From the NCBI GenBank assembly GCA_020852405.1, contig JADZAX010000101.1:1-35573 (forward strand): DNA of 35,573 bases. Reading direction: 5' to 3'. Every line of letters starts with the position of its first letter. The stretch's first letter is position 1. Both the position numbers and the translations under genes were made by a program. A model generated the notes under the pieces. That model was not told the origin of the DNA. It worked only from the letters and a program-made list of their open reading frames with translations, and made no database searches. Positions 24,683-32,106 of the stretch are shown in pieces. Source of the DNA: Verrucomicrobiales bacterium. Lineage in GTDB: Bacteria > Verrucomicrobiota > Verrucomicrobiia > Verrucomicrobiales > DEV007.

Positions 24683-25279
24683 TCAGCGACGCAGAAACCA
24701 GCCAGTGAGGCTCATGCGGGATTTCACCGTTGGCAGAACCTCATGCCAGTGATCACCAGCCAGAAAGCAGACCAGAGTGCCCATCCGTGGCTCGATCAAC
24801 ACAAAGCCACCTGCATAGTCGCCTGCGGTGGTCCAGAGCTTGAGTTCGCCTCCATCTCCCGGTTGCCATCCCTCATTCAAGTAGAGGATGGTCGTGATGA
24901 TGCGGTCGCTCGATCCCGCGTGGCAGTCGAGGTGGGCTTTGTAGAAGCCTCCCTCGGGAAACCTGGCGAAATGCCCCTCGAACGTGAACAACCCGAGAAA
25001 AAACCGCTCATTCAGCGCCAACCTGAGTATCTCCAACCAAGCCAGGTAAGCCTGTTGCACCTGTGAATCCCCCTCCTCCCTGAGCCAGCGCACTTCATCC
25101 CGCCGGATACCATCGCGAATCTCGAGCCCCGATCCCTTTCCCACCCCTGCGCGTTGCAAACCTCCAGCACGATCAACAATCAGGCATTCCTGCCCCAAAC
25201 GCAGCGAATCGGACTCCGACCGGCATTCAGGCATCACCCCCCAACCGAAAAGTGCCATGTGATCAAGGAGCGCCAGCAT
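24683..25279 (-). CDS. 2OG-Fe(II) oxygenase (prolyl-4-hydroxylase-like)
   Basis: GLFTFEGHFARFPEGGFYKAHLDCHAGSSDRIITTILYLNEGWQPGDGGELKLW (HxD) and DHWHEVLPTVKSRMSLTGWFLRR (distal His/Arg). Start trimmed from ORF 24683..25615; exact start uncertain. Confidence 0.87.
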   Translation of the reverse strand: MLALLDHMALFGWGVMPECRSESDSLRLGQECLIVDRAGGLQRAGVGKGSGLEIRDGIRRDEVRWLREEGDSQVQQAYLAWLEILRLALNERFFLGLFTFEGHFARFPEGGFYKAHLDCHAGSSDRIITTILYLNEGWQPGDGGELKLWTTAGDYAGGFVLIEPRMGTLVCFLAGDHWHEVLPTVKSRMSLTGWFLRR

Positions 25280-25379
25280 CCTCCAACGAGACTGTGTCCC
25301 TCCCCAATAGCCAGCCCTTTCTTTTACGCACCCCAAATCATTGGACACACGGACTGGCCATAGCCTGGGCCTCCCGCTC

Positions 25380-26396
25380 TCAGGCCGTGGCGATGACCGC
25401 ACTTTGGGCGGTCGGGGGCAGAGGATGCAGTTCCGCCCCGAGAAACCCGGCCTCTTGCAACATGGCCCGGTATTCATTGAAGGTGTAGGCATCGCCTTCC
25501 GGGGTAGTGCCGAGCATGACCAAGCTGAATCCCGCGGAGGACGGAGGAGTAACCCGGTCCTCATTGGGAACGAACTCCACGATGACCACCTGCCCCCCCG
25601 GCCGAAGCGCGGCATGGATCCGCCGCAGGAAATCCGCGCACTGGGTGGCGTTGAAATGATGCAGGAAATTGGGAATCAGCACGACATCGTATTCCGAACC
25701 GAGATCAACCGTGAAGGCATCGCCCACGATTTTGCTGAAACGCCCGGCAATCCCGGCGGCCACCGCATTCTCCTCGGTGATGGCGAGCACCGCCTCCCAG
25801 TCCAGGGCCACGAGGTGACAGCGTGGCTGTTTTTGGGCCATCGCAATGCCATAGGCTCCATGGCTCGCCGAAATATCCAGCACCCGGGTGTCCCGTGAGG
25901 AATCCAGCGCAACCAAGTCCGCGGCCCCTTGCGCGGCGGGGCCCATCATCGGCCCCATGGCCCGGGCGAATTCGATCCAAGCCGGATGATCAGGGGCGGT
26001 GGTGCCATGTTCGGAGGAATGAAGACGACCACTCCGGATCGTCGAGGCAAGGTCGCCGAAGGCCTCGGTGAGACCAGGAGCGAGGAGAAAATTCACCGCC
26101 CCGCCGAAATAGGCCGGGGAGCTTTCATCAAGAAACACGGCGGACGAGGGCGTCAACGCATAGGCCGATCCTGCTTTGGTGAGGAATCCCATGATCACCA
26201 AGTTGTCGCTCAGAATGCGGATCCCACGCTCGGGACATCCGCACTTGGAGGCGATGTCGCCGGCGGTCGAGGGATTGGCACCAATCGCGGTGAAAAGTCC
26301 GAGGTCGATCGCGGCTTTTAACGCGGCTGTCTTTTGGAAAGCATTGATCGTTTCGAAAAAAAGCTGGGGCGAAGGTGGCGCGTCGGAAGGTTTCAT
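25380..26396 (-). CDS. SAM-dependent O-methyltransferase-like protein
   Basis: Dimerisation-like N-terminus FFETINAFQKTAALKAAIDLGLFTAIG; VLDISASHGAYGIAMAQ; DVVLIPNFLHHF; ALRPGGQVVIVEFV. Confidence 0.9.
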   Translation of the reverse strand: MKPSDAPPSPQLFFETINAFQKTAALKAAIDLGLFTAIGANPSTAGDIASKCGCPERGIRILSDNLVIMGFLTKAGSAYALTPSSAVFLDESSPAYFGGAVNFLLAPGLTEAFGDLASTIRSGRLHSSEHGTTAPDHPAWIEFARAMGPMMGPAAQGAADLVALDSSRDTRVLDISASHGAYGIAMAQKQPRCHLVALDWEAVLAITEENAVAAGIAGRFSKIVGDAFTVDLGSEYDVVLIPNFLHHFNATQCADFLRRIHAALRPGGQVVIVEFVPNEDRVTPPSSAGFSLVMLGTTPEGDAYTFNEYRAMLQEAGFLGAELHPLPPTAQSAVIATA

Positions 26397-26515: not shown

Positions 26516-26974
26516 ATGAAACCAATTGATGGCCATTTTTTGATCAGACCGGAGGATTTGTTTTGGAGGCCTTCCAACATGATGCGGATTCCCAATGCGG
26601 ACTATCTGGAACGGACCGGCAGTGAACTCCTGGGGGCACGCTTGTGGAGATTGCCTCCCCACAGTGCCAACACCCTCCACCGGCATGTCCTTGCGGAAGA
26701 ATTTTATTTCGTCCTCGAAGGCGTGGGGCGGATCCGGTTGGAGGAGGAAACCCTGACCGTCCCCCGCTATGGAGGCGTCTTGATTGGTCCCCAACAACTG
26801 CGTCAGGTCTTCAATGACACGGATGAGGAGGTTCTTTGGCTCATCATCGGAGCACCGGATGCAGAGTTTCCTCCCGGCGAGCCGCCGGATTTCTCCCAAT
26901 ACTACCCGGTGGATCCCACGCAGTTGCCCCCGGAACTCGAGGGAACGATTTGGCCTCCCACCATCCCCGAATGA
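26516..26974 (+). CDS. Cupin domain protein
   Basis: RLPPHSANTLHRHVLAEEFYFVLEGVGRIRLEEETLTVPRYGGVLIGPQQLRQVFNDTDEEVLWLIIGAP. Confidence 0.9.
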   Translation: MKPIDGHFLIRPEDLFWRPSNMMRIPNADYLERTGSELLGARLWRLPPHSANTLHRHVLAEEFYFVLEGVGRIRLEEETLTVPRYGGVLIGPQQLRQVFNDTDEEVLWLIIGAPDAEFPPGEPPDFSQYYPVDPTQLPPELEGTIWPPTIPE

Positions 26975-27042
26975 CCGTTTCCTCAGCAAAGAGTCGGAGA
27001 GATTACTTGAGTTTCTGCCAGTCCGGCTCTTGGGTGCTTCCC

Positions 27043-27381
27043 ATGAGCCAGCCCACTTGTCCGATGTGCGAAATGACCGAGATCCTGACCTTTCCCGGCC
27101 GCTTGGAATGCCTGACCTGCGGTCACGAATGGCCGATCGAGAATCAGGAAGACGCCGACGCGGGCCGGATCGTCAAGGATGCCTACGGCAACGTCCTTTC
27201 TGATGGAGACCTCGTGGCCATGATCAAAGACTTGAAACTCAAGGGCTCGTCTCAGGTGCTGAAAATCGGCACCAAATCCGGACCGATCCGGCTCGTAGAT
27301 GGGGATCACGAAATTTCCTGCAAGATGGATGGCATCGCGATCGGTTTGAAAGCCTGCTTTGTGAAAAAGGTGAATGGGTAG
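27043..27381 (+). CDS. PhnA/YjdM-like zinc-ribbon protein
   Basis: MSQPTCPMCEMTEILTFPGRLECLTCGHEW...VKDAYGNVLSDGDLVAMIKDLKLKGSSQVLKIGTKSGPIRLVDGDHEISCKMDGIAIGLKACFVKKV. Confidence 0.93.
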   Translation: MSQPTCPMCEMTEILTFPGRLECLTCGHEWPIENQEDADAGRIVKDAYGNVLSDGDLVAMIKDLKLKGSSQVLKIGTKSGPIRLVDGDHEISCKMDGIAIGLKACFVKKVNG

Positions 27382-27515: not shown

Positions 27516-28274
27516 ATGATCCGGGATCTTCACTGCCACCTCAGCCAATCCCTCCCCGGAGATTCCCCGGCGGAGAAAGCTCGGCACCTCATCAAGGTAG
27601 GCCAGCGCCTCGGAATCGGTCATTTTTGCCTGTTCATGGGCTACCCCTTCCTGACGAATCCCTCCCCCGAGGATCTGCGACGCCAGAATGACCAGGTTTT
27701 GGAGGCGGTCACCGCCCATCCCGACTATCTGACCGGGTTTGTCTATCTGAGTGGGGAACATGTCGCCGCCAGTCTCGAGGAGCTGAACCGCTGCGTCAGA
27801 GATGGTCCGATGCGGGGCATCAAACTGTGGGTGGCGCGACGGTGCAGCGATCCCGCGATGGATCCCATTTTCCGCCGGGCGGAGGAGTTGAACGTCGTAG
27901 TCTTCCAGCACACCTGGCTCAAAGTGAGCGGCCAACTCCCCGGGGAAAGCACCCCCGACGACGTCGCCGCTCTGGGAGCCCGGTTCCCGGGGATGAAACT
28001 GATCTGCGGCCATTCCGGAGGGGACTGGGAGCGTGGCATTGCCGCGATCCGGCAGCATCCCCAGATCCATCTCGGGATCGGGGGATCCGATCCCACTGCC
28101 GGGTTTGTCGAGATGGCGGTCCGGGAACTCGGCGCGGCCAGGATCGTCTGGGGAAGTGACGCCCCGGGGCGAAGCTTTGCCTCACAACTCGCCAAAGTCA
28201 CCGGCGCCCCTATCGATGAGGCCGCAAAGCGTCTCATCCTGGGAGACAATCTGGCCCGCCTGCTCCAACCATGA
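27516..28274 (+). CDS. Amidohydrolase family protein (TIM-barrel metal hydrolase)
   Basis: MIRDLHCHLSQ (HxH), VVFQHTW, LICGHSGGDWERG, IVWGSDAPGRSF ligand motifs all present. Confidence 0.9.
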   Translation: MIRDLHCHLSQSLPGDSPAEKARHLIKVGQRLGIGHFCLFMGYPFLTNPSPEDLRRQNDQVLEAVTAHPDYLTGFVYLSGEHVAASLEELNRCVRDGPMRGIKLWVARRCSDPAMDPIFRRAEELNVVVFQHTWLKVSGQLPGESTPDDVAALGARFPGMKLICGHSGGDWERGIAAIRQHPQIHLGIGGSDPTAGFVEMAVRELGAARIVWGSDAPGRSFASQLAKVTGAPIDEAAKRLILGDNLARLLQP

Positions 28275-29110
28275 ACCGACGCCATCTATTGTCCCTGCCA
28301 CTCGCCGGACTGGCGGCCACTCCGGTGAGGCTACCGGCTGAAAACCGGCCAGCCCCCCTTCCTGTGGTGGACACCCAGGTGTGGCTTGGGCAGCATCCCT
28401 GGAGGAATCTTGCAGAACTATCGTTCCCTGCAGCATCGGGCGTTACCGAGGCGTGGGCCGGGAGTTTTGAGAGCTGGCTGCACCGAGATCTGGATGGAGT
28501 CAATGCCCGGCTCTCGGAGCGGTGCCAACGATTGCTCGGTCCGGCACGCCTGCGGGCATTTGGAGCGGTGGATCCCACCAGAAGCGGTTGGCAGGAAACC
28601 CTCCGACGCTGCGCGAAGGATCACGCCATGCCCGGGCTCCGTCTCCTTCCCGGTCCTCATGGCTATGATCTGGAGCATCCAGCGTTGGTCGAATGCCTCG
28701 AGGCAGCGGCAGAGGCGCGTCTCCTCGTGCAACTGGTAATCCGCCTCGAAGATGCCCGGACCCTCGCCCAGGTCAGCTGGAAGGAAGTCTCGCCCGCTCC
28801 CCTGCCCGCTCTGATGCGGCCCGGCTTGAGAGTCCAGTTGCTCAATGCGCTCCCCTCCATTGGCGATCGGCTCCTTCAGAAGAGACTCGTCGAAGCGGGG
28901 ATCCGATTTGACCATGCCATGCTGGAAGGGATCGCAGGGGTCGCCCAGTTCGAAGAAAAACTGCCGGGAGCCCTGCTGTTCGGCAGTTACGCGCCCTTTT
29001 TCATCGCCGAGTCAGCCCATTTGAAACTGGTCGAATCGGCCCTGCCTGCCACCACGATGAACGACCTTTGTTGGAGACGTGCCGAGGCCTGGTCTTCACA
29101 CCTGCCATGA
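28271..29110 (+). CDS. Secreted amidohydrolase-like protein lacking metal ligands
   Basis: MNRRHLLSLPLAGLAATPVR signal; VVDTQVWLGQHPW replaces HxH; LLFGSYAPFF replaces GSDAP; ATGA overlaps with both neighbours. Confidence 0.75.
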   Translation: MNRRHLLSLPLAGLAATPVRLPAENRPAPLPVVDTQVWLGQHPWRNLAELSFPAASGVTEAWAGSFESWLHRDLDGVNARLSERCQRLLGPARLRAFGAVDPTRSGWQETLRRCAKDHAMPGLRLLPGPHGYDLEHPALVECLEAAAEARLLVQLVIRLEDARTLAQVSWKEVSPAPLPALMRPGLRVQLLNALPSIGDRLLQKRLVEAGIRFDHAMLEGIAGVAQFEEKLPGALLFGSYAPFFIAESAHLKLVESALPATTMNDLCWRRAEAWSSHLP

Positions 29111-32106
29111 ACCTGATCCGATTCCTTGTTTTCTGGGGAGCCCTCATGGTTCCGGGATTTCCAGCGTCCGCCGAGGATCCCAGCCCCCCGTTTCCGCCGA
29201 TCCCTCCCCGTTCGCCCGATGACGCGGCGACTGCTTTCCAGGTCGGGCAGGGGTTTACGATGCGGCTGCTCGCCGCGGAACCGATGGTCACGGATCCGGT
29301 CTCGGTGACCTACGACGAAGCGGGGCGCGCCTATGTGGCCGAAATGAACGACTATCCCTACACCGATCCGGCCCAGCACCGCCCCAACCTGGAGAATCCC
29401 ACGGATGCGCCGATCGGTCGCATTCGTCGTCTAGTGGACACCGATGGAGACGGGGTCTTCGACCAATCCACGGTCTTTGCGGAAGGATTGTCCTGGCCCA
29501 CTGGGATGGCCTGTTGGAAGGGAGGAATTTTCGTCATCGCCACGCCCGACTGGTTGTATCTCAAAGACACCGATGGGGATGGGCGCGCCGACCAGAGGGA
29601 GCGGGTTTGGACCGGCTTCCGCAAATACAATGTCCAGTCGGTGGCGAACAACCCGGTGTGGGGGCTCGATCATCGTATTTATCTGGCAGCAGGGTCGAAC
29701 GGAGCCAGCCTGCTCCACCCCGGGACTCAAGGGCCGCCGTTGAAAGTGATCCGGGCCGATGTGTCTTTCGATCCGAGGACCGGGGATGCCCGATTGGAAT
29801 CCGGGGGAGCCCGTTTTGGACACAGTTTCGACGATGCGGGAAACCGGTTTGTCTGCAACATCCGGAATCCGGCCCAGCAAGTCCTGTTTTCCCCGCGCGA
29901 TCTGGGGTCGGTGACGTTCCTTCCCTCCCTTCCCGCGCTTCACGATGCGGCGCTTTCCGGCGACAGTCTGCCGGTCCACCGAATCAGTCCGCCAGAGACG
30001 TGGCGGGTCGTGCGCGCGGAACGTTGGGCTCGCACCCTCGAGGGGCGCTATCCCCGCAGTGAACTGGTCGGCTCCGGGGTGGTGACCTCCTCCTCCGGCG
30101 TCACTCTCTACCGGGGAGATGCCTATCCTGAAACGTTCCGCGGCCAAGTGTTTGTCGCCGATGTTGCGGCCAACCTGTTTTACCGGCTTGGCTTGCGCCG
30201 TCAGGGCTGCACCTTCACCGCGCACCGGCTCGATGAAGGGGTGGAATTCTGCGCCAGTCAGGACATCTGGCATCGACCGGTGAATTTCACGAACGACCCC
30301 CAAGGCTGCCTGACGGTGTCGGACATGTACCGCGAAACCATCGAACATCCGTGGTCGATCCCGGATGACCTCCATGCCAGGCTGGATCTCCGAAGGGGCA
30401 TGGACCGGGGACGTCTCTGGCGTCTGGAACCTCCGGCGTATCAATCCCGCAAAGTCAGTGATCTGGGCAGCTGCGATACCGAAGCTCTGGTGGCCCTTTT
30501 GGCCCATCCCAATGCCTGGCACCGGGAGACGGCGCACCGATTGTTGTTTGAACGTCAGGATGCCGCCGCGGTGCCCTCCCTGCGCCAGCTTCTGGAACAC
30601 AGTCCGTCCGCGCTGGGACGGCTGCATGCTATGTGGTCGCTCCATGGCCTTGGCGCCCTGACCGGCCCTGATCTGATCACCGCCATGGACAAACGCTTTC
30701 CGATAGTGCAGGAGAATGCCCTGCGGCTGGCGGCGGAATTTCCCGAAGCCACGGTGCTGCAGGGCCTGATTCTGGACACGGACCCGCTCAACCATCCGGC
30801 CCCGGCGGTCTTTCAAGCCCTGTTAACCGCCAAGGTTCTGGGGTTGTCGAACCACCCCACCGCCCCTGCATTCTTCGCCTCCGTCGCGGCAGTCGATCAA
30901 CCGTGGCTCAACGAGGCCCTCCTCTACGCTTCGGGAGGCCGCTTGGACCTGCCCTGGCCCATCAAGCCTGCCGATCGACCGGACAGTCCCCTGCTCCGGC
31001 TGAGGGCTTTCGCGCTGGCGCGGATCCCGGACCCAGGCGAAGCGGGACGCCTCTGCCACGCGATCAATGGCGCCCTGATGACTGCCGAAGACACTGCCGG
31101 GCCGGCACCCGCTGCCGCGCTGATGGCGTTGGCGGCCTTGAGCGAGGGCCTTGGACCGGACCAGGATGTGTTCGCTTTCAGCGAGAGCCGGGGAGTCCGG
31201 GATCTCAAACAGCATGCGTTGCCCGGCATCTCCTCACTGGTCAGCGATCCCTCATTGACCGTGGACTCCAGGGCCAGCCTGCTGCCCCTGCTTCGTTTTG
31301 CTCCCGTGTCGGAAGCCGTCCAAAGCCTCTCCGGGGTGGTTTCGCAGAGCAAGGAGACTGAAATGGCCATCGCAGCCCTGCAGGCCCTCGCCATGCTCCC
31401 GGGCCAGGAACCGGCCCTCGCCGTGGAACGTCTCTGGCCCGCCTTGACCCCCGCTTTGCGGAATGCGGCTCTGGAAGTGTGGTTCTCCCGGGAAGAACGA
31501 ATGCCGGCCTTGTTGAGGGCCGTCGAACAGAGACTGGTTTCGCCGGTCCACCTGTCCGCAACCCGTCGCGAGGCGGTGCTGACCCATCCGGACCCCGCCA
31601 TAGCCGATGTCGCGAAGACTCTGTTCGGTGGCGCCCGCCCCAGGGACTCAGTCATCAAACAATACTCCACGTCCCTTGAAACCCGGACGCTACCGGGTGA
31701 TGCGGCCGCCGGACTGATACTGTTCCGCCAATGGTGCAGCGCCTGCCACCGCCGCCAGGATGAGGGCACCGCCACCATCGGCCCCAATCTGGCAACCGTG
31801 CAGGCTTGGACGGAAGAGCAGATCCTCGTCAATATTCTGGATCCCAGCCGCGAAGTCGCCTCCGAGTTTGTGGAGCATCTCGCGGAATTAAAGGACGGCA
31901 AAACGGTCAGCGGAACCCTGCTGAGTGAGTCGGATTCCGGTCTTCTGATCAGGCAGTCGGACGGCACCAAGGTCAGCCTGCTCCGGAGTCAGCTCAAACG
32001 ACTCGTCACCTTGGGTGTCTCCTTGATGCCCGAAGGGTTTGAATCGGCATTGCCTCCCGGGCAAATGGAGGACCTGATCGCCTATCTCAAAAGCCCGCTT
32101 CCCTGA
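29107..32106 (+). CDS. PVC-type membrane-bound dehydrogenase with HEAT-like region and C-terminal haem-binding domain
   Basis: FTMRLLAAEPMVTDPVSVTYDEAGRAYVAEMNDYPYTDPAQ; GRIRRLVDTDGDGVFDQSTVFAEGLSWPTGMACWKGGIFV; WCSACHRRQDEGTATIGPNLATV (CxxCH); SGTLLSESDSGLLIRQSDGTKVSLLRSQLKRL. Confidence 0.94.
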   Translation: MNLIRFLVFWGALMVPGFPASAEDPSPPFPPIPPRSPDDAATAFQVGQGFTMRLLAAEPMVTDPVSVTYDEAGRAYVAEMNDYPYTDPAQHRPNLENPTDAPIGRIRRLVDTDGDGVFDQSTVFAEGLSWPTGMACWKGGIFVIATPDWLYLKDTDGDGRADQRERVWTGFRKYNVQSVANNPVWGLDHRIYLAAGSNGASLLHPGTQGPPLKVIRADVSFDPRTGDARLESGGARFGHSFDDAGNRFVCNIRNPAQQVLFSPRDLGSVTFLPSLPALHDAALSGDSLPVHRISPPETWRVVRAERWARTLEGRYPRSELVGSGVVTSSSGVTLYRGDAYPETFRGQVFVADVAANLFYRLGLRRQGCTFTAHRLDEGVEFCASQDIWHRPVNFTNDPQGCLTVSDMYRETIEHPWSIPDDLHARLDLRRGMDRGRLWRLEPPAYQSRKVSDLGSCDTEALVALLAHPNAWHRETAHRLLFERQDAAAVPSLRQLLEHSPSALGRLHAMWSLHGLGALTGPDLITAMDKRFPIVQENALRLAAEFPEATVLQGLILDTDPLNHPAPAVFQALLTAKVLGLSNHPTAPAFFASVAAVDQPWLNEALLYASGGRLDLPWPIKPADRPDSPLLRLRAFALARIPDPGEAGRLCHAINGALMTAEDTAGPAPAAALMALAALSEGLGPDQDVFAFSESRGVRDLKQHALPGISSLVSDPSLTVDSRASLLPLLRFAPVSEAVQSLSGVVSQSKETEMAIAALQALAMLPGQEPALAVERLWPALTPALRNAALEVWFSREERMPALLRAVEQRLVSPVHLSATRREAVLTHPDPAIADVAKTLFGGARPRDSVIKQYSTSLETRTLPGDAAAGLILFRQWCSACHRRQDEGTATIGPNLATVQAWTEEQILVNILDPSREVASEFVEHLAELKDGKTVSGTLLSESDSGLLIRQSDGTKVSLLRSQLKRLVTLGVSLMPEGFESALPPGQMEDLIAYLKSPLP

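Follow-up and report, generated by a model that had tools for sequence, protein, structure and literature searches.

We consider it probable that genes A and B of the window, the stretch of 35,573 nucleotides of Verrucomicrobiales DNA analysed here, encode an obligate heterodimer of two paralogues, in which A would be the catalytic subunit and B a structural subunit without metal ligands, and that in pairs of the window type B would carry A through the twin-arginine (Tat) pathway. The reading is built on the computed ligand loss of B, its fold, its origin in a single duplication, purifying selection, the co-occurrence and linkage of the two genes, a gene fusion, and Tat signals that are mutually exclusive within pairs.

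The pair lies on contig G000:C101 of a source genome of 648 contigs and 5.1 Mb that is 83% complete, and the coordinates of its features are collected in Table 1. The stop codon of gene A overlaps the start of gene B in an ATGA, and the start of gene C falls within the stop codon of gene B, again as ATGA; from these two overlaps we take A, B and C to be a tight operon. Gene A begins with MIRDLHCHL, has no signal peptide and carries the motifs DLHCH, FQHTW, CGHSGG and GSDAP, and the motifs of gene B are DTQVW, LVQLVIR, QLLNALPS and GSYAPFF, behind a leader of Tat type (MNRRHLLSLPLAGLAAT). A preliminary description of this DNA, made by a model from the letters, had given both reading frames with their overlap and motifs, and all of these were found as it had them. 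Gene C matches TIGR02604/TIGR02603 and has a Sec-like N-terminus; from its haem motif and leader, its product would be expected to be exported as well. Directly upstream of A on the same strand is a PhnA (YjdM) domain protein (26836-27381), with no link to the pair shown. On the minus strand of the window, an O-methyltransferase reading frame (25380-26396) overlaps a 2OG-Fe(II) oxygenase reading frame (24683-25615) by more than 200 bases, and the true start of the oxygenase is probably further in.

Table 1. Features of the A-B-C locus in the window; ligand roles are predicted from sequence motifs.
Feature	Position	Strand	Description
Gene A (P0001)	27516..28274	+	252 aa, Amidohydro_2 enzyme, full ligand set
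A beta-1 D4-L-H6-C-H8, HxH metal ligands	27525..27539	+	From sequence
A His132 (QHTW)	27909..27911	+	Motif-order counterpart of ACMSD His177
A His166 (CGHSGG)	28011..28013	+	Motif-order counterpart of ACMSD His228
A Asp215 (GSDAP), metal ligand	28158..28160	+	
Gene B (P0002)	28271..29110	+	279 aa, amidohydrolase paralogue without ligands
B Tat-type leader MNRRHLLSLPLAGLAATPVRLPAEN	28271..28345	+	Cleavage site approximate
B beta-1 D34-T-Q36-V-W38	28370..28384	+	Stands where DxHxH is expected; DxN in the family
B Val156, probable counterpart of A His132	28736..28738	+	Register set manually
B Arg163, EDxR loop	28757..28759	+	Invariant, 102/102 B proteins
B Asn192 (LLN)	28844..28846	+	Replaces the GHSGG histidine
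B Tyr240 (GSYAPF)	28988..28990	+	Replaces the metal-binding Asp
Gene C (P0003)	29107..32106	+	999 aa, DUF7133 and c-type haem domain (CxxCH)

Gene A matches the Pfam family Amidohydro_2 (PF04909) with E=1.6e-22 and, judged from its motifs, has the metal set of the amidohydrolase superfamily (HxH, His, His, Asp). The putative correspondence of His132 and His166 to ACMSD residues follows motif order, with the ligand list taken from PMC11650718. In the pairs that we call type I, A precedes B and keeps all ligands: every ligand motif is present in 15/15 type I A proteins (alignment A2) and in nearly all of a wider set, in which the partial or variant rows include L095, L102 and L121. The same set, when sought in the window B and in the family alignment of 102 B proteins, was found to be replaced throughout. 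At the first HxH position the aligned proteins have Asn in 97 cases, Gln in 3 and His in 2; at the position equivalent to A H166 they have Asn in 86 and Gly in 13; and at the strand-8 Asp position they have His in 64, Tyr in 25 and Asp in none. On these sequences the ligand loss is a property of the whole B family and not a matter of chance, and B would be metal-free. The loss of all recognisable ligands that had been claimed for the partner of A is thus found in the window and across the 102 aligned proteins. Rare remnants are present, for example DTHVH in L190 and DCHVY in L111, which fit the descent of B from a ligand-bearing ancestor; in the former protein (L190:3937-4707) the motif stands at beta-1 and may be what is left of the HxH of that ancestor. 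The residues D34, W107, R163 and P242 are invariant in B and R124, H130, Y132, E160, D161 and E219 nearly so, and these conserved residues would sit largely at the C-termini of the strands.

B itself matches PF04909 at E=1.7e-5, its 25.2 bits falling a little short of the gathering cut-off (26.4), and 95 of the 102 B-family members match this model at E<=1e-3. When the family profiles of A and B are aligned with each other (hhalign), the match spans their whole length (246 columns, E=1.1e-18): DTQVW falls opposite DLHCH, QLLNALPS opposite the CGHSGG strand, and GSYAP opposite GSDAP; the beta-5 register, A H132 against B V156, is a manual reading of that alignment. AlphaFold2 modelled the window B from the 102-row alignment with a pLDDT of 91.2 and a pTM of 0.87, and a Foldseek search of B against the PDB returned amidohydrolase-type decarboxylases (isoorotate, gamma-resorcylate and 5-carboxyvanillate decarboxylases and ACMSD) with probability 1.00 and E-values down to 1.5e-10. 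B is therefore predicted to have the homologous amidohydrolase TIM-barrel fold. Structure prediction had been proposed as a check, on the ground that a second protein of another fold would overturn the idea; AlphaFold2 and Foldseek returned the TIM barrel, in agreement with hhalign. A tree was built from 52 A, 52 B and 3 outgroup proteins. Every B lies on one side of one branch (SH-aLRT 99) and every A on one side of another (84), and by this topology one ancient duplication separates B from its paralogue A. The A and B distances across 92 pairs correlate (r=0.84), as expected of genes inherited together. For close pairs dN/dS is 0.11-0.20 in B and 0.06-0.14 in A, which marks B as constrained and functional, evolving somewhat faster than A.

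Pairing of the two genes was followed in several sets of genomes. Among 57 related genomes, A and B occur in the same 18, with a weak A-like match only in 1 further genome. Among 384 genomes of the class, the 27 with B (E<1e-80) are the same 27 that have A (E<1e-90), to which G362 is added, where B is in pieces adjoining its A. A search of a contig collection gave 301 relatives; the 80 loci retained from these represent Verrucomicrobiota, Planctomycetota, Acidobacteriota, Hydrogenedentota and others. Over all fetched loci, some of them duplicate copies, there are 126 B domains, with A directly upstream in 102, directly downstream in 9, fused in 1 and no such neighbour in 14; that is, A adjoins B in 112/126, in either gene order. 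Several of the 14 are at contig ends, and the genomes that were checked for an apparently orphan B have A elsewhere. In a few lineages or genomes A and B are at separate loci, and the tandem A-B arrangement recurs in a more distant group that belongs to another family of the class. To the question whether the ligand-less members are always paired, the answer is that the pairing is close to obligate. The constant partner of B is the Amidohydro_2 paralogue A and not an aspartate transcarbamoylase.

A second kind of pair is not visible from the window alone. In type II pairs the order is B' then A', and A' is also without HxH and Asp: the HxH has become Tyr and Thr/Leu and the Asp has become His in 8/8, while both other histidines are retained in QHTW and CAHAGGEW, so neither subunit has the usual metal site. 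Type II loci, with GSH at strand 8, are L055, L058-L063, L068-L070, L097, L125, L145 and L150; at L145 the A' gene lies about 1.9 kb from B' and is read from the other strand. At L097:4980-6779, B' and A' form a single open frame with a TTG start and a Tat-like leader. The full-length B'-A' fusion is present in 11/17 genomes searched in the Gimesia genus group, with 61-100% identity (genomes with the fusion include G431, G432, G435-G441 and G444), and a type I A-B pair is encoded separately in the fusion-bearing genomes.

B bears the Tat leader in the window and in almost every verrucomicrobial pair of type I or type II; A in those pairs starts near beta-1, type II A' being slightly extended at its N-terminus. 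Several Planctomycetes and Acidobacteria have the signal on A instead, with a B that lacks a leader. The loci with a Tat leader on A are L082, L086, L088, L094, L095, L098, L099, L104, L109, L110, L112, L116, L121, L139 and L193, the cases of L095 and L121 being the least convincing; an example of their leaderless B starts is MIIDVNVNLSRWPF. Signal states were assigned by motif and manual curation for 92 pairs that entered a tree: 49 have the signal on B only, 13 on A only, 30 on neither and 0 on both. Independence would give about 7/92 pairs with both, with the reservation that the pairs are related by descent. One locus (L076 and L195) that seemed to have a signal on each partner was rejected, as its A starts at MEIWD, and the A 'signal' of L199 as well as L102 and L196 were left out as ambiguous. 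The A-borne signal requires 5 changes on the tree, at least 3 of them forced by well-supported branches. The source genome has a TatC above the cut-off (G000:C382), and the window pair has the single twin-arginine signal expected of a hitchhiking pair, on B only. Hitchhiking accounts directly for the one-signal pattern, which is not explained if A and B are exported or retained independently of each other, and a co-export of A and B through Tat would be expected from these sequences. About a third of the pairs bear a Tat signal on neither partner, and the family therefore has some role besides co-export. The signal peptide that had been described as gained by B is indeed there in the window, as a Tat leader, but it is not general, since many planctomycete, acidobacterial and more distant B proteins lack one. 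The suggestion of a secreted pseudoenzyme or metal-free binding protein paired with an active enzyme agrees with the fold, the ligand loss and the obligate pairing with a ligand-complete enzyme; it was incomplete in that A has no signal of its own there and exported pairs carry one Tat signal, on either B or A and never on both, which is easier to explain by the two leaving the cell as a heterodimer than by a binding protein secreted on its own.

For a model of the complex, in-frame A-B neighbours were read through with stop codons as glycine, and 10 such linked rows were aligned with 34 single A and 34 single B sequences placed on their correct halves; alignment A4, made of fusion and single rows, was dropped because its B rows landed on the A half. 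AlphaFold2 of the linked A-B chain of L050, which belongs to the window's family, gave a pLDDT of 92.3 and a disordered linker at 267-287, with a pTM of 0.91; pTM is not an interface score, and the chains are joined by the read-through linker. Two equal domains without a defined packing are expected to give a much lower pTM, and on that ground we read the model as a confident heterodimer. That the related enzymes are dimers may bias the network towards dimer packing. Together with the B'-A' fusion, the linked model suggests that A and B form a physical complex.

In the mechanism that we propose, A would be the metal-dependent catalytic subunit, and B an ancient duplicate that has lost all metal ligands, is probably catalytically silent and has become the structural partner, keeping A in a dimer of the kind that related decarboxylases form from two identical subunits. 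In window-type pairs, with the only Tat signal on B, the folded A-B would be exported with A as the hitchhiker, and in exported versions generally one partner would bring both through Tat; in the window, the complex, once exported, would be located together with the haem protein of gene C. A strongly conserved pocket side in B (D34, R124, H130, Y132, E160, D161, R163, E219) is not obviously needed by a purely structural subunit, and it is possible, at rather less than even chances, that there is a composite or second active site, in which the B pocket does metal-free chemistry, binds substrate or donates an Arg to A. The conserved pocket motifs of B (DxN, RLHPxxHxY, EDxR, LLN, GSH/Y), with their invariant and near-invariant residues predicted largely at the strand C-termini, speak for this, as do the type II pairs: with HxH and Asp gone from A' and QHTW and CAHAGGEW kept, such pairs would still need to bind or convert something in the absence of the usual metal set. 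A further point in its favour is ACMSD, a dimer in which the neighbouring subunit contributes the catalytic Arg239 to the active site (PMC11650718). However, this Arg lies 11 residues past His228, and a search of B for a trans-acting Arg at the ACMSD position found no invariant Arg at that offset, the invariant R163 and near-invariant R124 being elsewhere in the sequence. The fuller version, a composite A-B site with essential B residues and type II pairs as exported heterodimers working without the superfamily metal centre, we regard as unlikely.

That A and B share an operon and a pathway and form no complex, with A acting as an enzyme in the cytosol and B exported on its own as a binding protein, would agree with the signal states of the window pair and with the few genomes in which the genes are at separate loci. 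But elsewhere it is A that bears the signal and B that lacks it, or a single Tat signal precedes a B'-A' fusion, so compartments would need to be swapped or shared, and the linked model packs confidently; we consider this account quite improbable. The loss of every ligand and the faster evolution of B might suggest the decaying product of a tandem duplication, yet such decay is refuted by the dN/dS of 0.11-0.20 and the invariant residues in a single clade across several phyla, the strong set moreover having no genome with A but without B, and we give it practically no weight. The obligate heterodimer with a ligand-less structural B is the reading that we prefer.

Several known systems resemble parts of this arrangement. 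The amidohydrolase-type decarboxylases of PF04909 (ACMSD and the gamma-resorcylate, 5-carboxyvanillate and isoorotate enzymes) are the best PDB matches of A and B in sequence and fold and share with A the fold, motif layout and predicted metal ligands. Unlike A-B they are homo-oligomers with the full ligand set in every subunit; one A-B subunit has no ligands, and a Tat signal is often present on one of the two. The closest precedent for an inactive subunit of the amidohydrolase superfamily working with an active enzyme is the inactive dihydroorotase (pDHO) that the aspartate transcarbamoylase of Pseudomonas needs (PMC7053772); there the active partner is a transcarbamoylase of unrelated fold, whereas in A-B the active partner is B's own paralogue, and many of the pairs would be exported. 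For hydrogenases and formate dehydrogenases it is established that a folded heterodimer passes through Tat on a single signal, by hitchhiking (PMC10924467), and NiFe hydrogenases, formate dehydrogenases and PaoABC have, like A-B, one twin-arginine signal and a partner without it (PMC10924467, PMC4273604). These are redox cofactor enzymes of unrelated subunits, in contrast to the paralogues A and B, between which the signal moves across lineages. The FAD glucose dehydrogenase (PMC6719666) co-exports its catalytic subunit with a hitchhiker partner, as proposed for A-B, but it is a redox enzyme with a non-homologous partner. Inactive amidohydrolase subunits and Tat hitchhikers are thus each known; no description of their combination, nor of the A-B pair, was found in the literature searched, most subscription papers being outside its coverage.

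The genes around the pair, at 50 loci, gave no clear clue to a substrate when one was sought. Upstream genes are mixed, and among the 50 downstream genes (alignment A6) 12 are DegT/DnrJ/EryC1 aminotransferases and 11 DUF7133 haem proteins, two classes that may point to two different pathways.

When the B proteins were compared with NCBIfam, no family model matched them, only a Tat-signal domain model. An annotator guided only by homology and leader would take B for an amidohydrolase and A for a cytosolic enzyme, and both are probably wrong. The present reading gives this widespread, unannotated family a testable role, that of a pseudoenzyme maintained through obligate pairing with its own active paralogue, and a Tat signal that is on either partner and never on both would offer a natural comparative test of hitchhiking outside the redox enzymes.
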